From contig CAINDP010000043.1 of NCBI GenBank assembly GCA_903847405.1, positions 1 through 36,610 of the forward strand: DNA of 36,610 bases. The letters are read 5' to 3'. A program made the position numbers and the translations under genes. The DNA is from an uncultured Myxococcales bacterium. GTDB taxonomy: Bacteria > Myxococcota_A > UBA9042 > DTJE01. Positions 2,979 to 21,340 of the stretch are shown here, in pieces. The notes beneath the pieces were generated by a model. It saw only the letters and a program-made list of their open reading frames with translations, was not told the DNA's origin and did not search any database. The stretch's first letter is position 1. Every line of letters begins with the position of its first letter.

Positions 2979-3983
2979 TCAGGCGCCCAGCCAGAGGGTG
3001 GCCACGCAGGCGGCGGTGATCGGTACGGTGGCGTTGTCGTCCACGACGTCGCTGAACAGTTCGGCGGCGGCAGCGGCCATGGCGACGGTGAGGGCCATGC
3101 CGACCAGCGCCAGCGGGCTGAGGGTCGTGGACTTCGCCAGGGCCAGGCCGACGGTCACGAGGGTCGCGGCCACGACGAAGGCCAGCGTGCCCAGAACGCT
3201 CTTGCGGCGGTACAGCTTCAGTTCGCCCCACTTGCGGCCGACGATGCTGGCCGCCGGGTCGCCGAAGGCCAGGACCAGGACGCCAATCTCGGCGGCCAGT
3301 TTCGGCGTCAGCGCGCAGATGATCAGCAGCGCCATGGTGTACCAGGACGCCGAGTTCGGCCGGCGCTTTTCCCAGGGGCGGACGACGTCCCGGAACAGGT
3401 ACCGGATCAGGAACTTGTTCACGGCCGGCCAGATGCGCCGGCTGACCTCGAACGTGACCGCGATCGACAGCAGGATTCCCAGGATCAGCACGGCCTGCCC
3501 GGGCGTCAGCAGGAATTCATAGATGGCCGCGCCGCCCAGGCCCGTCAGGACGTGGAAGGCGTTGCGCCGGTAGTTGACCGGCTTCATGCGCTCCAGCAGC
3601 GGCGCGCGGATGAACGTCGGTCCCGAAACGCCCTTCAGGCGGCGTCGCAGGTCCTCGTAGGTTTCGGACATCGCCTGGGCCTTCGCCCGCAGACGGGCGA
3701 CCGGCGCGCCGGCGGTCAGTTCGGTCGAGTAGGCCTTCAGGCAGCGGGTCGTTTCCTCGAGGGCCGGACCCAGGGCCTCGTAGCCGTCCGACAGGGCCTG
3801 GCGCGCTTCCTGCGCCCGGGCGCCCAGTTCGTCACAGGCGTCGGCGATGTGCTTGCGCCACTCGACATCCCGCAGATGGGGGCGGTGGGCCTGCATGGCG
3901 AGGGATTCGAGGTCCTTTGCGAACTGAAACAGGGCAGCCTTGAGGGTCGGGTCCATGGCGACCGTCGCGTCCATCCGTCCCAT
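2979..3983 (-). CDS. CTP-dependent lipid kinase (dolichol/phytol/diacylglycerol kinase family)
   Basis: A 334-residue integral membrane protein. The C-terminal 200 residues hold several membrane helices and the family signature: GDPAASIVGRKWG (241-253), KS at 261-262 followed by GTLAF, and a final ExxSDVVDDNATVPI block (308-321). These motifs are typical of the SEC59/VTE5/DGK1 superfamily, which phosphorylates polyprenols, phytol or diacylglycerol using CTP. The actual lipid cannot be read from the sequence. Residues 1-130 are a charged helical extension not usual in the family; it looks cytosolic. The start chosen is ATG 3983 because GGGAGG lies 8 bases upstream; ATG 3974 is an alternative. 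The leader is one of two copies of an 81-bp repeat (3989-4069). The gene sits upstream of the kinase-PilZ gene on the same strand with a 123-bp gap. Confidence 0.85.
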   Translation of the reverse strand: MGRMDATVAMDPTLKAALFQFAKDLESLAMQAHRPHLRDVEWRKHIADACDELGARAQEARQALSDGYEALGPALEETTRCLKAYSTELTAGAPVARLRAKAQAMSETYEDLRRRLKGVSGPTFIRAPLLERMKPVNYRRNAFHVLTGLGGAAIYEFLLTPGQAVLILGILLSIAVTFEVSRRIWPAVNKFLIRYLFRDVVRPWEKRRPNSASWYTMALLIICALTPKLAAEIGVLVLAFGDPAASIVGRKWGELKLYRRKSVLGTLAFVVAATLVTVGLALAKSTTLSPLALVGMALTVAMAAAAAELFSDVVDDNATVPITAACVATLWLGA

Positions 3984-3988
3984 CCATT

Positions 3989-4069
3989 GTACCTCCCGAG
4001 CGCGCAGGCGCAGGCGATGGGTTTCCGCAGGAAACTCGCGCCGCAGCCGAAGCCGACTCGGGACGCTCC
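3989..4069 (-). repeat. 81-bp leader repeat, copy 1 (upstream of lipid kinase)
   Basis: On the minus strand this segment matches 15091-15171 of the plus strand at 76 of 81 positions. It starts immediately after the T-run of the terminator at 4070-4096 and ends with the Shine-Dalgarno GGGAGG of the lipid kinase gene. Its ends carry a perfect 7-bp complement: TCCCGAG (4063-4057) and CTCGGGA (4000-3994), the second overlapping the Shine-Dalgarno. Inside are GTTTCC-TGC-GGAAAC and an AGTCG-GCTT-CGGCT hairpin. It may be a structured 5' leader, a promoter-bearing module or a small interspersed repeat. Confidence 0.85.
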
Positions 4070-4096
4070 AAAAAAAATCGCCCTCCCGTCGGGAGG
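4070..4096 (-). terminator. Rho-independent terminator of TSP3 lipoprotein gene
   Basis: Read on the minus strand, a perfect 6-bp stem CCTCCC-GAC-GGGAGG (4096-4082) is followed by GCGA and eight T (4077-4070). It lies about 115 bases after the stop of the lipoprotein gene ending at 4213, and directly before the repeat that leads the lipid kinase gene. It should separate the two transcripts. Confidence 0.75.
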
Positions 4097-4212
4097 CCGG
4101 CAAGGGATTCCGTCCGGCGAAAAACAGGTCGTCGGCGGCGTGGATTGAACCACGTCGGACGCGTGCTGGCAAGGCGGGATCGACCTTCACGAAGGACCCG
4201 TGAGGCCGGTCG

Positions 4213-13231: not shown

Positions 13232-14332
13232 ATGCGCATCCTGGTGGCGGGCGCGGGGAAGATGGGCCGGGACGTGGGACTGCGGTTCCTGCGGTCCGGG
13301 CTGGACGTGACCTGGGTCGAGCGGTCGCCGGACCGCAGCGCGGCCTTCGAAAAGCGTCTGGGGAAGGACATTCGCCGGGCGGTCGAGGAAGGCGAGATCC
13401 TCGGACGGGCATCGGTGCTGGTTCCCGGGACCCCGGTCGAACCCTTCGACGCCCTCTACGAAGCGGTGGACGAAGACCTGGACGCCAAGCGGGCGGTGGT
13501 CGCCGAGTGGGCGGGACACCTGGTCCCCGACGGCCTGATCCTGAGCAACACGTCGTCGATCCTGCCCTCGGAAATCGACCCCCGGTGCGTCGGGCTGCAC
13601 GCCTTCTACCCGACCGCCCTGACGGGATTCTGCGAGGTCGTCGTTCCGGCGGATTGTCCTGCCCAGCGGCGCCGGGCCGTCGTGGCGCTGGCGGCACGCC
13701 TGGGCCTGCGGCCGATCGTGCAGGACCAGACGCATGCCTTCGCGGTCAACCGCCTGATGCTGCCGGTGCAGGACTGGGCCCTCCGGGCGGTCGTGGCCGG
13801 GATCGACCCCGCGGCGGTGGACGCCGCCGCGGCCCATGCGTGGCCCAGTTGGGAGCCCCTGGGCATGATGGACGCGATCGGCCTGGACACCGTGGCCGCG
13901 TCCGTGGGCCGGTACCGGTTCCGCATGAACGCCGAGGAATCGGCCGCCTTCGTCGTGCTGGAAGAAGGCCTTGGGATCCTGGTGGCCGCGGGGAAGACGG
14001 GGGCGAAGGCCCACGATGGCATCCGGACGGGCGGCGCGCTGCCCTGGCCGTCCCTGGGCCGGATTCCGCCGGACCTCGGCGCCGACATGGAAGCCCTGTT
14101 CCGCAACGCCTGCGCCCGTGCGCTGGCGTTCCGTGACATCCCCGCGGGGGGGCTGGCGCTGGCGCTGTCCGGCCTGTTTGGTGTACCTTACCGCCCGGCG
14201 GATCGCGACCTTCTGACACCCGAAGCCCGGGAGCGGTGCGAGCGCCAGGCCCTGGCCACAGGCCTTGCATACTGGCGGCCCGCCCCCAGCGATCCAGGGG
14301 CCATCGACCCCTGGTCCGGCGACGGCGCCTGA
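13232..14332 (+). CDS. 3-hydroxyacyl-CoA dehydrogenase-like protein
   Basis: A 366-residue protein with the Rossmann GAGKMG motif (7-12) for NAD, SNTSSI (105-110), catalytic His123 in GLHAFYPT and Asn173 in AVNRLMLP. These are the 3HCDH signatures of FadB/PaaH-type enzymes. The C-terminal domain ends with GKTGAKAHDG, comparable to the family's KTGxGFY end, and then a longer tail. Family members interconvert 3-hydroxyacyl and 3-ketoacyl thioesters with NAD. No FabG-type ketoreductase is in the operon, so this enzyme is the best candidate for beta-keto reduction, working in reverse; this is inference. It begins 10 bases after the acyltransferase stop. Confidence 0.88.
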   Translation: MRILVAGAGKMGRDVGLRFLRSGLDVTWVERSPDRSAAFEKRLGKDIRRAVEEGEILGRASVLVPGTPVEPFDALYEAVDEDLDAKRAVVAEWAGHLVPDGLILSNTSSILPSEIDPRCVGLHAFYPTALTGFCEVVVPADCPAQRRRAVVALAARLGLRPIVQDQTHAFAVNRLMLPVQDWALRAVVAGIDPAAVDAAAAHAWPSWEPLGMMDAIGLDTVAASVGRYRFRMNAEESAAFVVLEEGLGILVAAGKTGAKAHDGIRTGGALPWPSLGRIPPDLGADMEALFRNACARALAFRDIPAGGLALALSGLFGVPYRPADRDLLTPEARERCERQALATGLAYWRPAPSDPGAIDPWSGDGA

Positions 14333-14363
14333 CCCCCGCTTGATCTGGATTCGGGAGGGCCGT

Positions 14364-15083
14364 GTGACGGTGCATTTGCAACGCGACGGTGATCTCGGTC
14401 GCCTGATCCTGGACCATCCCCCCGCCAACACGCTGCCCGACCCCGTGTTCGTCGATCCGGCCGCGCTGGCCGCCTTCCTGAACGCGCCCGATCTGCGGGG
14501 CGTTGTGGTGCAGGGCGCCGGACGCCACTTCTGCGGGGGCGCGGACATCGAGGGCCTCCTGGCGCGACTGCAGAACCCGGATGCACTGGGGGGCGCACTG
14601 ACCCGGGGCAAGGCCCTCCTGCGCCTGCTGGCCGATGCCCCGGTGCCGGTCGTTGCGGCGATCCGCGGCCAGTGCCTGGGCGCCGGCCTGGAAATCGCGC
14701 TGGCCTGCCACGCCCGCGTGGCCTCGGACGGCGCCATGTTCGGCTTTCCGGAATCGACCCTGGGCCTGCTGCCCGGCCTGGGCGGTACCGTCGGCGACGG
14801 CGATCGGGTCGAGCGGCGGGTCCGGGCGGACCTGCTGCTGACCGGGCGGCTGCTGGGTGCGGACGAGGCGCTGGCCCTGGGCCTGGTGGATCGGGTCCTG
14901 CCGGGCGGTGGCACGGTGGCAGCCGCCGAGGCGTTCCTGCGGACCTGGATCGACGGCCGCTCGCCGGCCCTGGTCCATGCCCTGATGGAAGCGATGCGCA
15001 ATGCCCGGCGATTGCCCCGGGACGAGGCCCTCCGGCGCGAAACGGATCTGTTCCTGCGCGTGGCCCGGGAGGCGCGAACGTGA
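14364..15083 (+). CDS. Enoyl-CoA hydratase/isomerase (crotonase), first of two
   Basis: A 239-residue crotonase-fold protein. GRHFCGGADIEGL (54-64) is the first oxyanion-hole loop and GQCLGAGLEIALAC (102-115) the second. Both catalytic acids are present: Glu110 (GLE) and Glu130 (GFPESTLG). It should add or remove water at the alpha-beta position of an enoyl thioester. The start chosen is GTG 14364 because GGGAGG sits shortly upstream. The gene is short at the C-terminus relative to the usual 255-265 residues. It is separated from the next gene by 92 bases containing the 81-bp leader repeat, the only large gap inside the operon. Confidence 0.88.
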   Translation: MTVHLQRDGDLGRLILDHPPANTLPDPVFVDPAALAAFLNAPDLRGVVVQGAGRHFCGGADIEGLLARLQNPDALGGALTRGKALLRLLADAPVPVVAAIRGQCLGAGLEIALACHARVASDGAMFGFPESTLGLLPGLGGTVGDGDRVERRVRADLLLTGRLLGADEALALGLVDRVLPGGGTVAAAEAFLRTWIDGRSPALVHALMEAMRNARRLPRDEALRRETDLFLRVAREART

Positions 15084-15090
15084 GTATTCT

Positions 15091-15171
15091 GGATCGTCCC
15101 GAGTCGGCTTCGGCTCCGGCGAGAGTTTCCTCCGGAAACCCATCGCCTGCGCCTGCGCGCTCGGGAGGAAC
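15091..15171 (+). repeat. 81-bp leader repeat, copy 2 (upstream of AcpS-like gene)
   Basis: This is 76/81 identical to the minus strand of 3989-4069. It fills the gap between the first crotonase gene and the second AcpS-like gene and ends in the Shine-Dalgarno GGGAGG of the latter. TCCCGAG (15097-15103) can pair perfectly with CTCGGGA (15160-15166), which covers part of the Shine-Dalgarno. The internal hairpins GTTTCC-TCC-GGAAAC and GAGTCG-GCTT-CGGCTC are also present. The five differences from copy 1 leave the 7-bp closing stem and the GTTTCC/GGAAAC stem intact. Confidence 0.85.
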
Positions 15172-15175
15172 TCTG

Positions 15176-15523
15176 GTGAGCCTCGCGCGGGTGCCCCTGG
15201 CCGATGTGGCCCGGGACCGCGCCGCCATCCTCCGCCAATCGTTCGACGTTGGCGAGCAGGCCGACCTGGAAGGTCGCCCCGATCGGACCGTGGCGGGCCG
15301 GCTGGCCCTGAAGCGGGCCCTGGTGGACCTGTGGGTGCGCCTGGCCCCGGGCGTTCCGGCGGCCGCCCGGGACTTCATCCTGTCCCGGGAAGCGTCCGGC
15401 GCCCCGGGCCTGCGGTCCGTGCCGGGTTCCATCGCGCCCGGGCAGGTACGGGTGTCCATCTCCCACTCCCCGGACCTCGCCGTGGGCCTTGCCGTAGCCA
15501 CCCAACCCGGGGGCGCGCCATGA
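15176..15523 (+). CDS. Degenerate AcpS/phosphopantetheinyl transferase-like protein
   Basis: A 115-residue protein starting at GTG 15176, placed 8 bases after GGAGG of the leader repeat. Its C-terminal VRVSISHSPDLAVGLAV (91-107) is the classic third motif of AcpS/PPTases. RLALKRALVDL (42-52) resembles the KEA helix but has Arg47 where the metal-binding Glu is expected. DFILSREASGAPGL (66-79) matches the strand before the third motif. No N-terminal GxD Asp motif is seen. On its own it is probably inactive as a transferase. It might act as a partner of the AcpS at 9132, or as an ACP-binding or regulatory subunit. Its stop overlaps the next start (ATGA). I am fairly sure of the fold but not of the function. 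Confidence 0.65.
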   Translation: MSLARVPLADVARDRAAILRQSFDVGEQADLEGRPDRTVAGRLALKRALVDLWVRLAPGVPAAARDFILSREASGAPGLRSVPGSIAPGQVRVSISHSPDLAVGLAVATQPGGAP

Positions 15524-16146: not shown

Positions 16147-17489
16147 AGGTCCTGCTGGTGAACCCGCCGCGATCGCCCCACAACGCCCTGCGGGACCACG
16201 CGCCGCCGGAAGCGCTCCGGTTCGTCCACTCGCGCCTGGTGGGCCCGCCCCTGGGCCTGCTGACCATCGCGGTCGCGGCCCGGGACGACGCCGACGTGTC
16301 GTTCATCGACCTGAAGGGCGAATACGACCTCCACCCGGACGCCCCGTCGCCGGCCGACTTCATCCGGTCCCGCATCCAGGCCGACCCTCCCGACCTCGTG
16401 GGCGTCACCTTCATCGCGTCCGAAACCCCGGCCGGCCTGGACATCCTGCGGGCGGTGAAGGCCGTGTCCCCCGGCATCGTCACGGTCGCGGGCGGGCTGC
16501 ACGCGACCCTGTGCCCCGAGGACTTCGTGGACCCGGCCGTGGACATCGTGGTGCCGGGCGACGGCGCCGTCGTCTTCCGGAACCTGGTCCGGACGCTGGC
16601 CGCGGGCGGCGACCTGGACACGGTGGGTGGACTGCTGGTCCGTGACGGAGATCGACTGCGCCCCACGCTGGCACCGGCGCCCCCGGTGGACCCGGCGGGT
16701 CGCGACTTCCTGGTCCCGGACCGGTCCTACCTCCAGCCCTGGCTGTCCACCTACACCGTGGGCGGGCGACCGCAGCCGGTGACGTACGTGTTCACGTCGC
16801 TGGGCTGCACCTCGCGCTGCTCGTTCTGCAGCATCTGGCCCCAGCGGGACGGCGCCTACCTGCAGCGGGACGTCGACAGCGTGGTCGCCGAACTGGCCTC
16901 GCTGACCGAGTACGAGGTGATTCGCTGGGCCGACGCGAACTCGGTCGTGGATCTGGAGTGGACCGCCCGCCTGCTGGACCGCCTGGAGGCCGAGGGCATC
17001 CGGAAGCACTTCGTGATGGACCTGCGGCTGGACACGGCCGCGAAGCACCCCGGCCTGATCGCGCGCCTGGCCCGGGGCGGGCTGAAGGTCGTCATCACCG
17101 GCATCGAGTCGCCCCGGGCCGAGGAACTGAAGCGGTACAACAAGGCCCTGGACACCCGATCGATCACCGAGGGGCTGAAGGTGTTCGCCGACAACGGCAT
17201 CCTGCTGCGGGCGAACTACGTGGTGGATCCGGACTACGGGCCGGACGACTTCGCGGCGCTGGCCGACTTCGCCACGGCCCACTCGACGGCGTACGCGGGG
17301 TACACGATCCTGACGCCCATGCCCGGGACCGGCCTGCACCGCCAGATGCGGCCCCGGATCGTCGATTCCGACCTGGCGAAGTACAACTTCTTCAACTGCG
17401 TCGTCGAAACGCGCCTGCCCCTGGATCGGTTCTACGAGGAGGCCGGGCGCCTGTGGGCGATCCGGACCGGGGATCACGTCATTTCGTAG
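16143..17489 (+). CDS. B12-binding-type radical SAM enzyme (rSAM1)
   Basis: A 448-residue protein with an N-terminal Rossmann-like domain of the cobalamin-binding type (MKVLLVNPPR..., GGLHATLCPEDF, VVPGDGAVVF) and a radical SAM domain starting about 215. The [4Fe-4S] cluster motif is GCTSRCSFC (Cys222, Cys226, Cys229). Related enzymes are methyltransferases or make C-C bonds and rings in lipids, natural products and hopanoids. It is the last gene of the operon, with ATG overlapping the crotonase stop. A tailoring reaction on an acyl chain is plausible but unproven. Its last 15 codons are duplicated as a relic at 19863-19908. It converges on the MopE-like lipoprotein gene. Confidence 0.9.
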   Translation: MKVLLVNPPRSPHNALRDHAPPEALRFVHSRLVGPPLGLLTIAVAARDDADVSFIDLKGEYDLHPDAPSPADFIRSRIQADPPDLVGVTFIASETPAGLDILRAVKAVSPGIVTVAGGLHATLCPEDFVDPAVDIVVPGDGAVVFRNLVRTLAAGGDLDTVGGLLVRDGDRLRPTLAPAPPVDPAGRDFLVPDRSYLQPWLSTYTVGGRPQPVTYVFTSLGCTSRCSFCSIWPQRDGAYLQRDVDSVVAELASLTEYEVIRWADANSVVDLEWTARLLDRLEAEGIRKHFVMDLRLDTAAKHPGLIARLARGGLKVVITGIESPRAEELKRYNKALDTRSITEGLKVFADNGILLRANYVVDPDYGPDDFAALADFATAHSTAYAGYTILTPMPGTGLHRQMRPRIVDSDLAKYNFFNCVVETRLPLDRFYEEAGRLWAIRTGDHVIS

Positions 17490-17521
17490 GCGCGAACCGG
17501 GGCCGCCAGACGCCGGGTTGA

Positions 17522-19723
17522 TCAGTTCGTGTCCCACACCAGCGTGTAGGGCTCGCAGCCCGGCTCCCCGCGGATCGACCACCAGACACGGCCTGATTCC
17601 TCGTTGAACGCGTCCGTGTCCAGGTCGTCCGCGTACACGCCGAAGGGGACCCAGACGGGGGTCACTTCGTCCTGCGGATCGGGAATGGGAGGCGGCACGT
17701 AGGTGCCGTCCTTGCACTTGGGGCCCTGGATGTCCCCCGCCCCCTCCGCCGGGTCGGCGCCTTTGCGCCACCATACGCAGATGTGGTACGCGCCGGTCCC
17801 GCCCGAAAGGTACGCGCCAGGCGACAGGGATGTATCGAGGAATCGATTCACTTCGGCCACGCGGAACGTGAAGAAGTCCTCCTCGTCCAACGCGTGGGTC
17901 CACCCGATCGTGTCGGCGATGTCATCCCTTTCATCGACGCTGCCCAGGTCCCTGGCGGTCTGGAACGTGTCGTTCGGCTCCTGTGCGTCCCTCTGCACGT
18001 CGCATTCGGCCGCCCATTCGCAGGTATCCAGGCAACGGAACGTCCCGCACCGGTTCGGGCACGGGTCCGTCGTCGCGGGTGCGCACGAACCGGGGTGGGC
18101 GCACTCGGACCACTCGGGCCAGGTGCAGTCATCGCCGCACGTACGCCGCCGCTCCCCGCAGAAACCGCAATCCTCCGCCGCCTCGACGCCGGAATCGCAT
18201 TCGTGGCCCTCGTCGACGACGTCGTCGCAGTTGTCGTCGATGAGGTTGCACTTCAACTCGGTCACGCGGGGGTTCCGGCTGTCGGACGTGTCGTCGCAGT
18301 CGCCGCCCGTCTTCGTCACCCAGTCGCCCGCCGCGAGGCACAGGCACCTCCCCGCGTCCCGCGCGCCGTAGGTGTCGTGGTCCGCGTCCGGGTACCACAT
18401 CTCGCACCCCAGCCGGTCCAACCCGTCGTCCGTGCCCAGGACGCAGTCGTCGTCCTTGCCGTTGCAGATTTCCGTCATGCCGGGGTTGACGTTCCGGTCC
18501 TGGTCATCGCAATCGGAGCCGTTGTCCACCAGGGTCACCGTCGGGTCCGCTCCGCAGCCGCAGCGTGTCGTCGCGGCATCGCCGTACCCGTCCTTGTCCT
18601 GGTCCACGTAGCGGACCTGGCACTCCCCCACGGTGGGCTCGTCGATCACGTCATCGCAGTCGTCGTCGATGTCGTTGCAGACCTCGGTCGCGTCGGGGCT
18701 CACCGCCTTCACGGCGTCGTTGCAGTCCCCCGCCCGCGAGGCGGTCCAGGGCACCCCCAGGCCGCACCCGCAGCGCGGCTCGCCCACGCCGTACCCGTCC
18801 CCGTCATCGTCCCGCCAGAAGGACGTGCAGTCCGCCGTCCCGTCCTCGTCCGTGTCGCCGTCGCAGTCGTCGTCGTACCTGTTGCAGATTTCGTCCTTCG
18901 GCGGTCCCGCCCTGCACACCTTCGTGCCGTGCTCGCAGACCCGGGGCCCGACGCAGATCGTGGTGCCCCACTGCAGCGCGCACTCGCCGAAGACGATCTC
19001 CTCGTCCGTCTGCCCGTCGCAGTCGTCGTCGAGGTCGTTGCACGTCTCCTCGACCGCGTCGGGCGCGTCGCACGCGGCCAGGCCGTCCGCCGTACACGTT
19101 CGCACGCCCGAGCACGTCGCCATCCCGTTCGTCCGCGTGCACGACGTCGCCAACTGCCGCTGCACCGCCGCAGCCGGGCACACGCACTCCGCCCCCAGCG
19201 ACGGCACGCACTGCTTCACCGACGAGGGCCGGTTCTCGGGCCGGATGCAGTCGTACCCGTCGGGGCACCCTTCGCCGATCCTGCAGTCGATCGCGCAGAA
19301 CTTCCCGGCCTGCGCCGTCCCGAGGCACAGGTCCTTCGTTTCCACCCCCTCCGGGCGGCAATCCGCATCCTCGTTGCACGGCGCGCACAGAAGGTCCGGC
19401 CCCGGCACGCAGGCCCGCACGTCGTCCCCGCCCAACCCCAGGGTGCGGCAGATCCGTCCCTCCGGGCAGGCCTCGTCCGTTCCACAGGGGGTGAACGCCG
19501 GCGCGTCCGGCTGGTCCCGGCCGGCTCCGTCGTCTGCCACGTCCCACGAAACGTCCCGGTCGTCGCCGTCGCCACCCCGGTCCAGGAGGTTCGAATCGGC
19601 CGGCACGTCCCGCGCGTCCGCGACCAGGTCCTCCCCGGGCGTCTGGCTGTTGCCGGTGCAGGCCCATTCCAGCGCGCACGCCCCGATCAGCACGCCCGTG
19701 AACACGCCCCGAAGGTTTCGCAT
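17522..19723 (-). CDS. Large Cys-rich lipoprotein with MopE-type metal-binding repeats
   Basis: A 733-residue exported protein. The start chosen is ATG 19723 because GAGG lies 6 bases upstream; ATG 19729 would touch the GAGG. Lipidation is likely at Cys16 (IGAC) or Cys22 (WAC). An Asp/Pro-rich linker and a Cys-rich region follow. There are five MopE-type motifs of the form (E/K)xCNxxDD(D/N)CDxxxDE at about 226-241, 278-293, 347-362, 418-433 (degenerate, DDDCVLGTDD) and 490-505, interleaved with DxDxDGYG calcium-type loops. After about 600 a non-repetitive beta-rich domain follows, with EPNDTFQTARDLG near its start, as in bacterial pre-peptidase C-terminal domains. MopE binds copper and sits on the cell surface; metal choice here is unknown. 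Flanked by a 46-bp duplication. Confidence 0.87.
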   Translation of the reverse strand: MRNLRGVFTGVLIGACALEWACTGNSQTPGEDLVADARDVPADSNLLDRGGDGDDRDVSWDVADDGAGRDQPDAPAFTPCGTDEACPEGRICRTLGLGGDDVRACVPGPDLLCAPCNEDADCRPEGVETKDLCLGTAQAGKFCAIDCRIGEGCPDGYDCIRPENRPSSVKQCVPSLGAECVCPAAAVQRQLATSCTRTNGMATCSGVRTCTADGLAACDAPDAVEETCNDLDDDCDGQTDEEIVFGECALQWGTTICVGPRVCEHGTKVCRAGPPKDEICNRYDDDCDGDTDEDGTADCTSFWRDDDGDGYGVGEPRCGCGLGVPWTASRAGDCNDAVKAVSPDATEVCNDIDDDCDDVIDEPTVGECQVRYVDQDKDGYGDAATTRCGCGADPTVTLVDNGSDCDDQDRNVNPGMTEICNGKDDDCVLGTDDGLDRLGCEMWYPDADHDTYGARDAGRCLCLAAGDWVTKTGGDCDDTSDSRNPRVTELKCNLIDDNCDDVVDEGHECDSGVEAAEDCGFCGERRRTCGDDCTWPEWSECAHPGSCAPATTDPCPNRCGTFRCLDTCEWAAECDVQRDAQEPNDTFQTARDLGSVDERDDIADTIGWTHALDEEDFFTFRVAEVNRFLDTSLSPGAYLSGGTGAYHICVWWRKGADPAEGAGDIQGPKCKDGTYVPPPIPDPQDEVTPVWVPFGVYADDLDTDAFNEESGRVWWSIRGEPGCEPYTLVWDTN

Positions 19724-19862
19724 GACCATCCTCGCGCCGATGAAACGGTCGGATCCTACTGAACGTTCGGCAACGAGGCAATCGGATTGACAAATCTACG
19801 GTCGGGACCCGTTTTTCCGTATCCCGGTGCAGTTTGTGCTTGACGCACGAAGGCTGTCCCCG

Positions 19863-19908
19863 GGCCGGCCGTCTGTGGGCGATCCGGACCGGGGACCACG
19901 TCATTTCG
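19863..19908 (+). pseudogene. Relic of the 3' end of a radical SAM gene (rSAM1-like)
   Basis: This 46-bp stretch matches 17441-17486, the last 15 sense codons of rSAM1, with three mismatches. In the rSAM1 frame they are GGG to GGC, CGC to CGT and GAT to GAC, all synonymous, so the peptide AGRLWAIRTGDHVIS is unchanged. The stop TAG of rSAM1 is GAG here. Upstream of 19863 the similarity ends abruptly. The stop codon of the minus-strand rSAM2 gene (19901-19903) lies inside this relic. Confidence 0.8.
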
Positions 19909-21340
19909 GAGCGGGTGTCGCGCCGGCGAACCGCGGCCAGGCCCGGCGCAGGCGCAGCAGCGTGCGGAACATCGGCTCGGCCAGGCCGTCCCGGGCGCGC
20001 ATCTCGACCGCCTGCCGCAGCATGTCCGGATCCGGGGTATTTTCGCCCGGAGGCAGGCAGTTCGGGCGCGTCGCGGCCGCCTGGACCAGCAACCGCATCA
20101 CGCCGTCGTACCCCAGGGGCGGCTGCACGTAGAAGGTCGGCGTCACCAGGTCGTCGTCCGGTCCCACCAGGCCCTCGCGCAGCGCGATCCGGTGCAGGGG
20201 CGTGGCGGGGTAGATCCGCAGGCCCACACCCATCAGCACCAGGTCGTCCGGCGAAATCTCGCGATCGATGAAGTCCAGGGACTCGGCGATGGTGGATTCG
20301 TCCTCGCCCGGCCCGCCGAACAGGAAGAACCACACCGTCGGCATGGCCTCGGTCCGGATCACTCGCGCCGCGCGCAGCAGGCCGTCGGGGGTGAAGTTCT
20401 TGCCCAGGCTGCGGATCATGCGCGGGGAAGCCGAGTCGGGCGTGCAGTCGATCTGGGCGAAGCCCGCGGCCTTCATCCGGCCCAGCAGGTCCGCGGTCAC
20501 GCCGCCCGGGTTGACGCCCATCGTCCGCAACCGCACGCCCGGCGCGGCCGCCACGATGGCGTCGCAGATGGCCTCGGCGTGCCCCGGGGGTTCGTTGAAG
20601 GTCGAATCCACGAACTCGAAGGTGGCGCCCGGCAGGCGCGCGGCCGCCTCCGCGATCTCGCCGGCGATGTCCGACGCCTCCCGGAGTCGGTACACCCGGC
20701 CCTCGACGTTCGGATAGGTGCAGTAGATGCAGCCGTGGGAGCACCCGCGGCGGGCCTGTACCGGGTACGAGCCCAGGCGCCGGTAGGGCGTGAAGTCGAT
20801 GTGCAGATCGACCTCGGCGCGGGGTGTGACCAGGGGCCCCGGCAAGCATCGGGGCGGGTTCACGACGATGCGCCCGTCCCGTCGCGATACCACGCCCGGA
20901 AGATCGCCCGGGTCGCGGCCGTCCCGCAGGGCCAGCAGCAGGTCGCGGAAGGCGTGCTCGCCCTCGGCCACCACGCCCCAGTCGGCGCCGTAGTCGTCCA
21001 TCAGGTGCGCCGGGAACAGGCTGAAGGCGCTGCCGCCCAGGACCAGCGGCACGCTCGTCAGGGCGCGCAGGGGCCGCACGAATTCGTCGCGGACCTGGTC
21101 CAGGAAGAACGTGCCCCCGCGGGCTATCAGGTCGTCCACGTTCCGGATCGTCAGGCCGACCACGTCCGGCCGGAACCCCTGGACGGCCTCGGCCAGCCCG
21201 GCGCCGCTGTCGAACGCCCCGTCGTGCACGCGCACCTCGAAGTCCTCCCGCAGGGCGCTGGCCAGCAGGCACAGTCCCAGGGGCGCAACGGGATACGGGA
21301 TGCGGCAGGTATTGGTGTTGATCAGCAGGACGCGCTTCAC
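19901..21340 (-). CDS. B12-binding-type radical SAM enzyme (rSAM2)
   Basis: A 479-residue protein with the same architecture as rSAM1: N-terminal cobalamin-type Rossmann region (MKRVLLINTNT, LGGSAFSLFP, VVAEGEHAFRDLL) and a radical SAM core with RRGCSHGCIYC (Cys200, Cys204, Cys207). Later elements such as DSTFNEPPGHAEAI, MGVNPGG and FLFGGPGEDE fit the TIM-barrel SAM contacts. About 30 residues longer than rSAM1 and clearly a different subfamily. It lies on the opposite strand to the ACP operon. The duplicated junction suggests the two radical SAM genes were once adjacent and convergent. It could act on the same product. The next gene downstream on the strand is the MopE-like lipoprotein. Confidence 0.9.
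   Translation of the reverse strand: MKRVLLINTNTCRIPYPVAPLGLCLLASALREDFEVRVHDGAFDSGAGLAEAVQGFRPDVVGLTIRNVDDLIARGGTFFLDQVRDEFVRPLRALTSVPLVLGGSAFSLFPAHLMDDYGADWGVVAEGEHAFRDLLLALRDGRDPGDLPGVVSRRDGRIVVNPPRCLPGPLVTPRAEVDLHIDFTPYRRLGSYPVQARRGCSHGCIYCTYPNVEGRVYRLREASDIAGEIAEAAARLPGATFEFVDSTFNEPPGHAEAICDAIVAAAPGVRLRTMGVNPGGVTADLLGRMKAAGFAQIDCTPDSASPRMIRSLGKNFTPDGLLRAARVIRTEAMPTVWFFLFGGPGEDESTIAESLDFIDREISPDDLVLMGVGLRIYPATPLHRIALREGLVGPDDDLVTPTFYVQPPLGYDGVMRLLVQAAATRPNCLPPGENTPDPDMLRQAVEMRARDGLAEPMFRTLLRLRRAWPRFAGATPAPK

Follow-up and report, generated by a model that had tools for sequence, protein, structure and literature searches.

We identified an 84-bp palindromic repeat that is represented twice in the window, as we call the whole 36,610-nt stretch of DNA that was analysed, and is very probably a non-autonomous mobile element specific to one genus of uncultured Myxococcota. 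Its copies are dispersed through the source genome and occupy sites whose orthologues are empty in a sister species. They form a covarying hairpin, are arranged at several loci as tandems with a period of 84 and also reside in frame within genes.

The repeat unit and its hairpin

The two copies in the window occur where the initial annotation had placed them (15091–15171 on the plus strand and 3989–4069 on the minus strand) and are 91% alike over 90 nt. Both contain the two stems it had described, TCCCGAG/CTCGGGA and GTTTCC/GGAAAC. The unit corresponds to 84 bp and not 81 bp, as judged from the 84-nt spacing of tandem copies at several loci and from the size of the insertions when filled sites are compared with empty ones. 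It is composed of TGGATCG (7 nt), a stem-loop of 70 nt that begins with TCCCGAG and ends with CTCGGGA, and GGAACAN (7 nt). The core of the element, GTTTCCNNNGGAAAC, occurs 82 times in the genome versus 0 occurrences of the reversed control, which is far beyond chance. The features of the window and of one further locus are listed in Table 1.

Table 1. Positions of the repeat copies, their stems and the neighbouring features. Positions refer to the window unless a locus or contig is named.
Feature	Position	Strand	Basis or remark
Copy 1, 84-bp unit	15090..15173	+	Model match 15090–15172; empty site in G001 (C150)
Copy 1 outer stem, 5' arm TCCCGAG	15097..15103	+	Window sequence, covariation
Copy 1 outer stem, 3' arm CTCGGGA	15160..15166	+	Window sequence, covariation
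Copy 1 middle stem, 5' arm GGCGA and 3' arm TCGCC	15118..15122 and 15143..15147	+	Window sequence, folding, covariation
Copy 1 inner hairpin GTTTCC-TCC-GGAAAC	15125..15139	+	Sequence, core search, covariation
Enoyl-CoA hydratase gene upstream of copy 1	14265..15083	+	Pfam ECH_1, 2e-33
GGGAGG upstream of the element, probable Shine-Dalgarno native to the AcpS-like ORF	15067..15072	+	Kept in G001
AcpS-like ORF, 147 aa, includes copy 1 in frame	15080..15523	+	Start overlaps hydratase stop
Copy 2, 84-bp unit	3987..4070	-	Model match 3988–4070; empty site in G001
Copy 2 inner hairpin GTTTCC-TGC-GGAAAC	4021..4035	-	Sequence, core search, covariation
Inverted repeat and T-run, terminator-like, just before copy 2	4071..4097	-	Read directly
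Membrane-protein gene downstream of copy 2	2979..3983	-	Start 3983 or 3974
Element in error-prone DNA polymerase gene	L102:2001-2083 = source-genome C170:10456-10538		

The element is a palindromic repeat that folds into a long stem-loop. Across 86 full-length copies, the 18 base pairs of the outer (7), middle (5) and inner (6) stems were formed in 98.6% of cells, and sliding the pairing register reduced the paired cells to 51% or less. Nine of the 18 pairs showed changes on both sides. This amounted to 75 double-change cells compared with 18.7 in shuffled alignments, a value that none of 500 shuffles reached; these counts represent sequences and not independent events, and subfamilies are present among them. 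At the terminal pair, the source genome shows T-A, G-C or C-G and the sister species also A-T; the inner stem exchanges GTTTCC/GGAAAC for GATTGC/GCAATC and other combinations. Compensatory changes, the lack of which the initial annotation had named as grounds for rejecting its proposal, are therefore present. Because the folding energy of single copies was only moderately unusual (z of -2.35 and -1.45), the case for this structure rests on covariation.

Several copies depart from the full-length unit. Shortened copies of 44–50 nt (L004, L038, L091, L096, L124 and L138) keep the outer stem without the inner hairpin, and some of them adjoin a full copy. A 15-nt insertion in the 3' arm is common to three copies, L051, L136 and L100 (C44:65043, C266:13659 and C142:38358, respectively), and this small subfamily suggests that copies beget copies.

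Copy number, range and empty sites

A DNA search identified 46 strong copies in the source genome, and a covariance model built from 43 copies raised this number to at least 124 at E ≤ 0.01 with the best 150 candidates scored. The same model identified at least 85 copies in G001, the sister species from the same genus, and one copy in G002, a third species of this genus; the element was absent from 50 other relatives. Among named GTDB species, an exact-pattern search for the core matched a single MAG, an uncultured Myxococcales bacterium whose contig numbers and positions agree with those of G001, and records of the source genome may be hidden in this set. Viral contigs contained zero matches to the core. 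The genomes are draft MAGs with home-made gene calls, and contigs end inside tandem arrays of the element in G001 (C135:1-243) as well as in the source genome (C45 and C182), so the arrays are probably longer and the copies more numerous than counted.

We compared the flanks of the source-genome copies against 1.2 Mb of G001 sequence and additional pieces of this genome. Both flanks could be aligned at 31 loci, 27 of which are empty in G001. The other four have element-like content, including one (C67, matched with a loose pattern) that is probably a false match by alignment. This comparison, together with the dispersal of the copies, bears out the suggestion in the initial annotation that the element might be a mobile repeat. 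The existence of subfamilies and deletion derivatives was also counted in favour of a mobile element. Precise loss from G001 would be the alternative to gain in the source genome; this is unlikely to have happened at 27 sites, and at single sites it could have.

The cleanest junction was found in a gene encoding a glycoside hydrolase 35 (GH35) enzyme, where the source genome reads GGCAAC, 84 bp of element and ATCATC, compared with GGCAACATCATC in G001. This junction is blunt, with no duplication and no loss. Likewise, a search for target duplications of 2–9 nt in many registers across 82 copies revealed none that was consistent, and the scattered small excesses were taken as chance because their offsets were inconsistent. 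Target preferences are weak and consist of a preceding pyrimidine and of GG at two to three bases past the 84th base.

Based on these features, we hypothesise that a trans-acting enzyme would recognise the hairpin, most likely in its single-stranded DNA form, and would insert a copy without target-site duplication. The head-to-tail tandems may arise because the left end of the element, TGG, resembles the weakly preferred GG beyond its right end. Effects on neighbouring genes, such as the 28-aa tag contributed by copy 1 and the Shine-Dalgarno possibly donated by copy 2, would be by-products of insertion.

Copies inside genes and next to gene starts

Whereas the examined loci are ~89% coding according to the home-made caller, approximately four-fifths of the copies are intergenic, which indicates that coding insertions are selected against or avoided. 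Many copies at random positions had been expected of a simple interspersed repeat; the copies are indeed many, but they avoid coding sequence and their placement is not random. Within predicted genes we found 26 copies. The net length gained in genes is divisible by three and in most cases amounts to 84 or 81, a result that is biased where it comes from genes called across the element, as these are in frame by construction. For this reason, the frame test was redone starting from sites that are coding in the element-free G001. All 12 sites located inside a G001 gene stay in frame and open in the source genome, and copy 1 represents a thirteenth in-frame site that the caller did not count in this set. 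The hosts include a TatD DNase, a radical SAM protein, the GH35 enzyme and an error-prone DNA polymerase (NCBIfam PRK05672). In the latter, the element is localised to the helix-hairpin-helix region, and G001 is without the element there.

The reading frame of these copies is non-random. In the sense orientation, nine out of 10 copies are read as x-PES/PEA, and in the antisense orientation 12 out of 16 are read as PPERAG. The frames never seen in genes are arginine-rich, so selection for tolerable linkers would be a simple explanation. Copies in genes would survive because the unit equals 28 codons and because the commonest frame of each orientation is predicted to encode a soft linker (LDRPESASAPARVSCGNPSPAPARSGGT or PPERAGAGDGFPQETLAGAEADSGRS). 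Direct reading of the consensus showed that it is stop-free in all six frames, as are 54 of 124 copies, compared with 1.4% of the sequences obtained by shuffling the composition of the consensus and 20% of 83-mers drawn at random from the genome. We tentatively suggest, at somewhat less than even confidence, that this 28-codon hairpin, spread by an enzyme without target duplication, has been shaped for tolerance inside proteins through its lack of stops, its whole number of codons and its linker frame.

Copy 1 is located at the start of the AcpS-like ORF. The G001 orthologue of this ORF spans 119 aa and has a possible GTG start that overlaps the hydratase stop and is preceded by GGGAGG. The same GTG (15080) and Shine-Dalgarno are found in the source genome, where the product is exactly 28 residues longer. 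Given the shared start and this difference in length, copy 1 is most likely an in-frame insertion of 28 codons after codon 3 and not a leader, and the gene probably starts at GTG 15080. The proposal that each copy ends in the Shine-Dalgarno of the downstream gene thus most likely fails for copy 1, whose native GGGAGG is upstream of the element, and is possible for copy 2. Profile support for the description of this gene as a degenerate AcpS is weak (NCBIfam AcpS, E 0.013).

Copy 2 lies between the terminator-like repeat and the start of the membrane-protein gene. The T-run noted in the initial annotation precedes this copy, at 3989–4069, and not the one at 15091. The GGGAGG of copy 2 is positioned eight bases ahead of an upstream in-frame ATG (3983), whereas the start in common with G001 is the ATG at 3974. 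Judging from this arrangement, copy 2 may donate or mask a Shine-Dalgarno for ATG 3983 and would be the only copy in the window to do so. The annotation of the gene product as a lipid kinase is suggested by a GFGDPAASIVGRKWG-like motif, and the product has no Pfam or NCBIfam match.

The initial annotation also considered that the element might act as a cis-acting RNA switch or thermosensor, with the outer stem masking the Shine-Dalgarno and co-regulating the lipid kinase and the AcpS-like gene. The stems exist and covary, and GGGA of the GGGAGG in copy 2 would be hidden by the outer stem; however, a conserved base-paired structure is as much expected of a DNA hairpin as of a cis-regulatory RNA. 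The copies, at least 124 in number, are found beside unrelated genes. Copy 1 is most likely within a coding sequence, neither window site is occupied in the sister species and an Rfam scan of the window returned no match. The element is also not always upstream of start codons. Either end can face a start, both orientations occur, and some copies are inside genes, so that a fixed position or orientation in gene leaders is not seen. A start codon is within 20 nt of the right end in 9 of 62 cases, a proportion no higher than the 12 of 67 for left ends, which lack a Shine-Dalgarno; supply of this signal is therefore not a general property of the element. We consider that a switch of this kind is extremely improbable.

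Alternatively, the element could have originated as a mobile repeat of which many copies were then retained for a regulatory role at the 5' side of genes, such as that of an RNA processing hairpin or of a part of a promoter; we regard this as highly unlikely. Consistent with such retention, gaps that hold an element are rarely convergent (4 of 81, compared with 27 of 148 gaps without elements). However, convergent gaps are short and account for 1,653 of the 18,828 nt of element-free gaps, which leaves little sequence to insert into and by itself would predict few elements there. Moreover, both ends of the element face start codons equally, and the sites are mostly empty in G001. As insertions of a mobile element, these copies are a warning that an upstream element common to two genes can reflect insertion and not co-regulation. 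Start codons predicted immediately behind an element of this sort may likewise be misassigned.

Relation to known repeat families and the mobilising enzyme

Rickettsia palindromic elements (RPE) and Wolbachia palindromic elements (WPE) are small hairpin-forming repeats that occur between genes and, with the reading frame kept, within conserved genes unrelated to one another (PMC2229807, PMC10969869). The element described here shares these properties: it is a hairpin repeat that is present between genes and inserted in frame in unrelated conserved genes with element-free orthologues, and we found no mobiliser for it, as none is known for them. It differs in length (84 bp versus 105–146 bp), in being GC-rich and in belonging to another phylum. 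The likeness is one of functional kind and is drawn from descriptions of those repeats.

REPs, of the GTAG and CGTC superfamilies, are dispersed imperfect palindromes, some of which are intragenic and have been seen in DNA synthesis and repair genes (PMC3733652). They span 20–40 bp with a stem of 5–13 bp and a GTAG or CGTC tag, whereas the element spans 84 bp with three stacked stems. T-type copies have CGTC ahead of the outer stem; this tetranucleotide is not kept in G-type copies or in many of the G001 copies. We found neither a unit of 20–40 bp with a GTAG tag nor a cognate RAYT flanked by the repeat. The source genome has one Y1 (RAYT-like) transposase gene (L046, C82:35045-35383), and this gene is flanked by AAGTGGGACAGTCACCC inverted repeats, which are a separate small repeat.

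A REP-type repeat moved by this RAYT would agree with the imperfect palindrome, the more than 100 copies, the lack of target duplication and the single Y1 gene in the genome. Nonetheless, we judge it very unlikely: the repeat flanking the RAYT is a different one with 23 copies genome-wide, G001 has no Y1 match in spite of its many copies of the element, and the unit is too long and lacks the GTAG tag. The RAYT was thus rejected as the mobiliser. A reverse transcriptase was likewise considered for this role, and the source genome has no RVT_1 match. CGTC-type REPs are known without a dedicated transposase (PMC3733652), and neither these nor RPEs have a known mobilising enzyme (PMC2229807, PMC3733652).

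Several bacterial MITEs contain open frames that have been found joined to ORFs of the host (PMC2229807). The element resembles those of the ERIC, Correia/NEMIS, RUP and YPAL type in being a small non-autonomous repeat with terminal inverted repeats, which are represented by the covarying TCCCGAG/CTCGGGA arms located 7 bp from the ends. Several MITEs of this type leave target duplications, whereas none was detected for the element, either at the blunt GH35 junction or across the 82 copies. Exact matches to the left-end pattern comprised the known copies and one deletion derivative only, and no related insertion sequence was found in the portion of the genome screened.

The element is best regarded as a new family within a known kind of repeat; it works like RPE and resembles REPs, and a limited search of the literature found no report of it. 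If the element has indeed been shaped for tolerance inside proteins, as tentatively suggested above, it would add to the selfish palindromes that code for protein a case from beyond Rickettsiales, in a distant phylum and with recent activity. Palindromic selfish DNA that sits in frame within genes is familiar chiefly from the small genomes of that order, and here it is found in a GC-rich myxobacterial genus, where a sister species with empty sites makes the insertion site, its size and the effect on the protein directly readable.

The window contains a further feature of interest. A 49-bp direct repeat, 92% alike between its copies (17441–17489 and 19863–19911), brackets ~2.4 kb that contain a protein of 735 aa in which Cu-binding_MopE motifs (Pfam PF11617) are present. 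In G001 as well as in G002, the flanks are joined directly, with one copy of the repeat lying at the 3' terminus of a B12/radical SAM gene, and the region 17441–19911 therefore looks like an insertion or cassette.
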